Origin: Fidelibacterota bacterium
GTDB lineage: Bacteria; Fidelibacterota; UBA2242
Length of the DNA stretch: 33,469 nt
Assembly: GCA_011046365.1 (NCBI GenBank)
Contig: DSAS01000074.1
Location: 1-33,469, forward strand
Reading direction: 5' to 3'
Shown: piece after piece, positions 17,771-18,829 of the stretch
Layout of the letters: the number at the start of each line of letters is the position of its first letter
Position numbering within the stretch: position 1 is the stretch's first letter
Made by a program: the position numbers and the translations under genes
The notes under the pieces: model-generated
What the model saw: only the letters and a program-made list of their open reading frames with translations
Database searches by the model: none
What the model was told of the DNA's origin: nothing

Positions 17771-18829
17771 ATGAAACACACTATTTTACTATTTCTCCTC
17801 ATCTTTCTGAGCACCTGTTCACAGAAAAAAGTCGAAGAGGAGCCGGGACAAATCAATTTTAAAGTCACCGAATTTGAAGAAGCCCGGATTGAAGCCCGGG
17901 ACAGTGGTCGCTTGCTGCTGGCTTATTTCTACACCGACTGGTGAAGCTCCTGCAAACGCTTGGACCAGTTGGTCTTCACGCAAAAAGATGTCGCCGACTT
18001 TATCAACACCAATTATGTTGCCCTGAAAATGGATGGCGATACCGAGCTGGGTAACGCCCTGCGCAAACAGTTTAAAGTACCCGGCTATCCGACGATGATT
18101 CTGTTTGCCGCCGACGGGCAAGAGATTGACCGTATTGTCGGATTCAGCGGAAAAAAAGACGAATATTTTCAAATACTTAAAGACTATACCAACGGCATTA
18201 ACACCCTCCACGACCTGCTGTCAAAAAACGGTAGCGATGCCAACAGTGCTCAACTGAATTTTGATATCGCCACGAAATATAGCGATCGCGGCAACGATGA
18301 GTTGGCTTTGCAGTATTTCGAAAATGTACTCGCCCTCGAACCGGATAAAAATTCCAAAATCTATCTCGAATCAGAATACAATGTCGCTGAATCAAAAACC
18401 TTCAGCCGGGATGATCCGCTCTATTTGCAGCAGTATGCTAAAAACTGCCGCAATGAATATCTGCAATACTATGCTTACAGCAGCCTGGTACGTTTTTTCC
18501 GGCTGAAAAAAGACCAGCCCAATGTCATCGCCACCTACGAGGAGGCATTGAGCAAACTGCCTGAAAATGCCTCCATGATGAACAGCTACGCCTGGTACAT
18601 TTTCCAGAACCGGGTCAGCAACTACTATGAACGGGGCATTGCGGTAGCCCGGAAGGCTGTGGCGCTGGAGCCGGAAGCCGACTCCATCTGGGACACCCTG
18701 GGGCAACTGCTGTTTGCCGCCGGATACACGAAAGAAGCCATTATCGCCATGCAGAAAGCAGTGGAGCTGGCACCCGATGAAACATCCTATCAGGAGAATC
18801 TGGAACGTTACAAAGCTAGTCAGTCGTAG
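17771..18829 (+). CDS. Candidate selenoprotein: thioredoxin-like UxxC + TPR lipoprotein; in-frame TGA at 17942-17944
   Basis: ATG 17771 with GAGG upstream gives MKHTILLFLLIFLSTCSQKKVEEEPGQINFKVTEFEEARIEARDSGRLLLAYFYTDW-[TGA]-SSCKRLDQLVFTQKDVADFINTNYVALKMDGDTELGNALRKQFKVPGYPTMILFAADGQ... then TPRs. No frame change across the TGA (171 nt = 57 codons before it). The ORF track starts at TTG 17960 only because the TGA is read as stop. Confidence 0.75.
17941..17979 (+). promoter_or_regulatory. Candidate bacterial SECIS-like RNA hairpin at the TGA
   Basis: Lower pairing GTGAAG (17941-17946) with CTTCAC (17974-17979), embedding the TGA in the 5' arm. Upper hairpin GACC (17963-17966)-AGTT-GGTC (17971-17974) with G at loop position 2, about 24 nt after the TGA. 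The two helices share C17974, so full pairing of both is not simultaneous. No folding was computed. Confidence 0.5.

Follow-up and report, generated by a model that had tools for sequence, protein, structure and literature searches.

Why does the frame of a thioredoxin-like gene meet a stop codon exactly at the first position of its active site? The question is raised by contig DSAS01000074.1 of a Fidelibacterota bacterium (GCA_011046365.1); its 33,469 nucleotides (nt), contig C17 of a 2.68-Mb genome that is 89% complete, are the window analysed here. A frame that begins at ATG 17771 meets an in-frame TGA at 17942-17944 and closes at TAG 18827-18829, as an initial sequence-only reading of this DNA had stated and as is read directly in the sequence; the joined product counts 352 residues, the approximate length then given, and its active site reads YTDW-U-SSCKRLD (W-U58-S-S-C61). 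The proposal made at that time, a candidate selenoprotein with selenocysteine (Sec) in a UxxC motif, is supported: the UGA is very probably decoded as Sec, given the presence of tRNA-Sec, selA, selB and selD in the genome, an alignment column that holds either TGA or Cys, a conserved hairpin, and purifying selection on the downstream codons.

Conservation of the UGA codon and its hairpin

The occurrence here of an in-frame TGA with long open flanks is evidently more than chance, because it is the only large case in the window that does not overlie another gene (flanks of 40 or more open codons each) and because the frame on either side is conserved across phyla with TGA in one shared column. 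Apart from this codon the frame is undisrupted. The Sec machinery for which the sequence-only reading had suggested a genome-wide search is present in all four components: a tRNA-Sec above the Rfam cut-off (56.2 bits) with the anticodon UCA (ARAGORN), selA (8.7e-137), an adjacent selB about 90 bases 3' of selA (1.8e-110), and selD (2.4e-116). The Sec trait apparently serves another gene of the genome as well, since an AhpC-type peroxiredoxin gene (contig C1:6321-6719, minus strand), a member of a known Sec family, has TGA at the peroxidatic position (PGDFTFVU), in conformity with the described PxxxTxxU Sec-peroxiredoxin motif (PMC13188914). In the peroxiredoxin gene, the strongest hairpin 3' of the TGA has its loop about 7 nt away, closer than the published rule of 16-37 nt. 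A search for molybdopterin oxidoreductase/formate dehydrogenase as a further Sec user found no match in the genome (two families checked in all).

A protein search across 60 relatives found full-length orthologs, most of them with exactly one in-frame TGA, and each ortholog TGA falls in the alignment column where other orthologs have Cys (CVWC, CSWC). The state of homologs at position 58, which the sequence-only reading had named as a check, is TGA in 41 members of the non-redundant set (Sec forms) and Cys in 14 (Cys forms). The close relatives are Candidatus Neomarinimicrobiota (Marinimicrobia); further Sec forms are found in Zixibacteria, a Calditrichota bin, an Aminicenantes bin and one Acidobacteria bin, and Cys forms occur in Ignavibacteriae, Bacteroidetes and others, all bin names being the depositors' own labels. 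Among 248 genomes surveyed in the phylum, 66 have a relative with an in-frame TGA and 13 a relative lacking it (manual count of the table, the TGA position being verified only at loci whose sequence was fetched). selA is present in 15 of 16 Sec-form genomes that were cross-checked, the exception being 71% complete. On a tree of 54 rows the Sec/Cys state changes seven times, and at least five of these changes are forced by well-supported branches.

Among close Sec orthologs with unsaturated synonymous sites, the ratio of nonsynonymous to synonymous substitution rates (dN/dS) is 0.10-0.26 in the thioredoxin part 3' of the TGA and 0.07-0.16 in the part made of tetratricopeptide repeats (TPRs). 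Selection 3' of the TGA is purifying, as expected where a functional protein is translated, and is the opposite of the relaxed downstream constraint that, according to the sequence-only reading, would have spoken against a selenoprotein.

Some relatives depart from the usual length. Two loci in another family of the phylum (G215:C21:16661-17053 and G216:C33:1926-2288) encode thioredoxin-domain relatives of about 145 amino acids without TPRs, each with one in-frame TGA, and are possibly stand-alone Sec thioredoxins. Four loci of a single genus (G177:C37, G179:C48, G181:C58 and G182:C128) have longer frames of about 390-400 amino acids whose match is split in two, the TGA lying in the first piece; judging from these matches, an insertion separates the thioredoxin and TPR parts.

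The published rules for bacterial selenocysteine insertion sequence (bSECIS) elements call for an apical loop of 3-9 nt, an upper stem of 4-16 base pairs, G among the first two loop positions, a distance of 16-37 nt from the UGA, and a minimum free energy of -7.5 kcal/mol or lower (PMC13188914, a review of May 2026). The window hairpin has this geometry, with a 5-bp stem, the loop AGUU, a distance of 22 nt, and -8.9 kcal/mol over the 48 nt after the UGA. Within the window's group all five stem pairs form in 12 of 12 Sec orthologs, with G-C replaced by A-U in three pairs. In 24 further Sec orthologs the hairpin is a different one, typically CGGC-UGGAU-GCCG, whose loop lies 16 nt 3' of the UGA; its three inner pairs form in all 24, some G-C pairs being replaced by U-A. 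Other stems, each with the loop GGUC, are found in the Aminicenantes member and in three members from Zixibacteria/Calditrichota. The search for a SECIS element 3' of the TGA that had been advised at the outset has therefore found a conserved SECIS-like hairpin with compensatory changes. A hairpin of -3 kcal/mol or lower under the published geometry is present in 40 of 41 Sec forms versus 4 of 14 Cys forms (Mann-Whitney p 1e-7, kinship ignored), and in the Cys forms the hairpin is mostly absent or displaced. About four of five independent Sec/Cys pairs on the tree are concordant and none is opposed on average, a number too small for significance. When hairpin strength was compared with synonymous recoding, p was below 0.05 in 24 of 41 Sec forms and 1 of 14 Cys forms (window p 0.13), a result that is suggestive and not decisive. 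An Rfam scan of the window gave no match above the gathering thresholds.

Domain architecture and proposed role

In the joined protein, Pfam recognizes Thioredoxin_7/Thioredoxin_2 followed by TPRs, with PF13098 and PF00085 also matching. The AlphaFold model (predicted local distance difference test score 92.6, predicted template modelling score 0.83) begins with a hydrophobic helix at the N-terminus, continues in a thioredoxin fold and ends in helical TPRs. The sequences in the PDB closest to the redox domain are a putative disulphide-isomerase (2kuc), a thioredoxin (2lst) and DsbD domains, and partial fold matches found by Foldseek are to TPR superhelices, YbbN, DsbH and DsbD-gamma. Residues C16, U/C58, C61 and P107 are invariant in a 21-row alignment (A1), in keeping with two features pointed out by the sequence-only reading: a thioredoxin fold that spans the TGA and includes the cis-Pro motif VPGYPT, on which Pfam and AlphaFold agree, and a lipoprotein-type FLSTC motif at the N-terminus, from which the protein is probably lipid-anchored. 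The fold, the UxxC motif and the cis-Pro of a thioredoxin-fold oxidoreductase are all present. Coordinates are collected in Table 1.

Table 1. Features of the putative selenoprotein locus in the window.
Feature	Position	Strand	Basis or detail
Shine-Dalgarno-like GAGG, 5' of ATG	17763-17766	+	Direct sequence reading
Selenoprotein gene (predicted)	17771-18829	+	352 codons; Sec = codon 58; stop TAG 18827-18829
Signal peptide with lipobox-like FLSTC; Cys16 probable lipidation site	17771-17818	+	C16 invariant in A1; hydrophobic stretch before C16
DsbD-gamma-like thioredoxin domain, residues ~29-141	17855-18193	+	Pfam Thioredoxin_7 8.3e-13; AlphaFold; PDB sequence and fold matches
TGA codon 58, first residue of UxxC, predicted Sec	17942-17944	+	Column conservation; Sec machinery in genome
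TGC codon 61, putative resolving cysteine of U-S-S-C	17951-17953	+	Invariant in A1
SECIS-like hairpin GGACC-AGUU-GGUCU	17962-17975	+	UGA-to-apical-loop 22 nt; G at loop position 2
Codon 107, cis-Pro of thioredoxin fold (VPGYPT)	18089-18091	+	P107 invariant in A1
TPR superhelix, residues ~146-349	18206-18817	+	Pfam TPR_2, TPR_8, TPR_14; model helices 146-349; TPR fold matches

The reading that we prefer, with a probability of about 0.6, is that of a Sec-decoded, periplasm-facing, DsbD-gamma-like thioredoxin-TPR protein acting as a DsbD-fed reductase. SelA, SelB, SelD and tRNA-Sec would decode the UGA as Sec, guided by the hairpin that starts 17 nt 3' of it, and the product would be exported by means of its signal peptide, probably to be lipid-anchored and facing the periplasm, with the U-S-S-C thioredoxin domain preceding the TPR superhelix. 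The selenolate of Sec58 would attack a disulfide or other oxidised thiol of a substrate, Cys61 would resolve the mixed selenosulfide to leave a Sec58-Cys61 selenenylsulfide, and the genome's full-length DsbD would reduce the selenenylsulfide again, while the TPR part may bind and position a client or partner. A complete DsbD is encoded in the genome (DsbD_N, DsbD_TM and Thioredoxin_7), and is a plausible electron donor. Sec insertion, export, lipidation, the selenenylsulfide chemistry, the reduction by DsbD and the binding of a client by the TPRs are all inferred from sequence and model.

Several observations weigh on the other side. The lipobox is not strict, being LSTC with Thr at position -1 relative to C16, where most relatives have Ala, Ser or Gly, and in some distant homologs the lipobox Cys is missing. 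No conserved neighbour backs the direction of the reductase, the DsbD donor or the TPR role. One Sec form (L063) does not attain the strict 4-bp stem, and the 4 of 14 Cys forms mentioned above also carry some hairpin that reaches the -3 kcal/mol threshold. Compared with shuffles, the fold of the window itself is ordinary (z 0.08, single-sequence folding), so the SECIS evidence is comparative.

The alternative that best survives accepts the selenoprotein but gives it another role, for example in disulfide isomerization or oxidation, in peroxide reduction or repair, or as a YbbN-like holdase chaperone with a regulatory redox site. The absence of an operon partner to fix the pathway leaves room for it, as do the Foldseek match to YbbN, itself a thioredoxin-TPR protein, the protein disulfide-isomerases among the PDB sequence matches, and DsbH among the fold matches; but among named proteins the redox domain matches DsbD-gamma-type reductases best, the signal peptide counts against the cytosolic role of YbbN, and low-potential Sec favours reduction. 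Another role is accordingly a serious candidate, though a clearly less probable one than that of a DsbD-fed reductase.

Readings without selenocysteine

It is very unlikely that the real product is a short protein beginning at TTG 17960, with the upstream part not translated into it. This start was chosen by automatic annotation, and the mechanical list of open reading frames (ORFs) indeed places the gene start there, 3' of the active site, losing both the signal peptide and the active site as the sequence-only reading had observed. Such a product would lack the active site as well as the signal and the first beta strand. Conservation in frame extends over the upstream region, with its ribosome-binding site, signal peptide and first half of the thioredoxin fold. 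Sequence inspection shows no ribosome-binding site before the TTG; the GAGG noted earlier as a ribosome-binding site lies just ahead of ATG 17771, and a comparison of upstream regions finds GAGG or AGGA before the ATG of most orthologs.

A nonsense mutation that interrupted a former Cys-thioredoxin gene is more improbable still. The frame is interrupted and the databases hold only the downstream piece, as would be expected of a pseudogene, but the TGA is at the same position in 41 non-redundant orthologs of several phyla, the frame is otherwise intact, and downstream of the TGA dN/dS is 0.07-0.26; the conserved column and the purifying selection lead us to reject a pseudogene. Sequencing error is likewise rejected: the identical TGA in a second assembly of the locus (OMKS01000384.1, one base different over 9 kb and possibly from the same sample as the window) and in many relatives supports the base call, which the sequence-only reading had wished to see checked in the reads. 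Decoding of UGA as some other amino acid, such as Trp by reassignment or a suppressor, would also leave the frame open through the TGA, but is just as improbable as a pseudogene, with Cys in homologs at that column, the full Sec machinery in the genome, and TGA terminating 5 of the 24 main ORFs in the window, where it is an ordinary stop, as had been argued from the start, so that UGA-to-Trp reassignment is rejected.

Known families, genomic context and significance

Sec is known in UxxC thioredoxin-fold proteins, including entries named 'thioredoxin' and 'thiol:disulfide interchange protein' (PF00085, PF13098; PMC13188914), which share the thioredoxin fold, the UxxC motif and a SECIS-like hairpin with the window protein. 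The inventory of 2026 gives these entries no TPR fusion or lipoprotein signal, a difference that sets them apart by description only; the words TPR and lipoprotein are absent from it, and it lists no family with that combination (PMC13188914). The thioredoxin-TPR protein is not among nine new deep-Sep families (PMC12013277), and the open-access literature, apart from subscription journals and supplementary tables, yielded no TPR-thioredoxin selenoprotein and no such selenoprotein of Marinimicrobia or Zixibacteria.

DsbD gamma is the closest curated model for the redox domain (3.3e-15; fold match 1uc7), but only this gamma-like domain is matched (55.7 of the 330 bits required for DsbD), and the window protein differs from DsbD and DsbH in that it lacks the DsbD membrane domain, has Sec where they have Cys, carries TPRs and is probably lipid-anchored. 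In YbbN, too, TPR-type helices follow a thioredoxin domain (3qou, 3qdn), but the match covers both domains only loosely (root-mean-square deviation 22), and YbbN is cytosolic and has no signal peptide. None of the NCBIfam selenoprotein models reaches its cut-off on the window protein. The Trx7/PDZ (seleno)protein NF041199 is likewise of the Thioredoxin_7 type with an extra protein-interaction domain, but its motif is CxxU instead of UxxC and its extra domain PDZ instead of TPR (16.6 of 300 bits required). The C-terminal DsbD-gamma-like part of TsoB, a rhodanese/DsbD fusion-like selenoprotein (NF045694), matches the redox domain (1.7e-12), but its architecture is different and its Sec motif is UxxxxU (46 of 805 bits required). 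These comparisons support a new selenoprotein family and architecture, built from known parts; by the inventory's rule of domain plus Sec motif, it could instead be classed under the PF13098 UxxC entry (WP_011366075.1), as a variant with a fusion.

No conserved operon partner was found beyond a divergent Peptidase U32 family gene (window 16343-17599, minus strand), an arrangement kept in close relatives; since the neighbouring genes are not conserved more widely, the context names no client. Between two opposite-strand genes is a small ORF of 89 amino acids (window 15997-16266, plus strand) that by eye resembles an RNA-recognition motif (LYVGNL ... GFGFVEM). Downstream, a cluster on the minus strand (window 19016-25712) encodes DUF4340, ABC_transp_aux/DUF7088, ABC-2 permease, ABC ATPase, DUF58 and MoxR-type AAA proteins, and resembles a gliding-type ABC transporter set.

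We hold at even odds the broader proposal that this is an undescribed, widespread Sec family, the usual form in the Neomarinimicrobiota lineages that have the gene and present also in other phyla, with repeated switching between Sec and Cys, in a DsbD-fed Sec-dependent reducing pathway of the periplasm. The finding would enlarge the bacterial selenoproteome by a well-supported Sec family and architecture, from phyla with hardly any cultured members, and would place Sec in a redox protein of the cell envelope. It also points to a systematic annotation error: the closest database proteins, of about 286 amino acids, start after the TGA and are cut off from the signal peptide and active site, full-length matches of about 360 amino acids being found among more distant relatives. 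With its repeated Sec/Cys switches and differing SECIS hairpins in one coding segment, the family may offer a good case for the study of Sec gain and loss.
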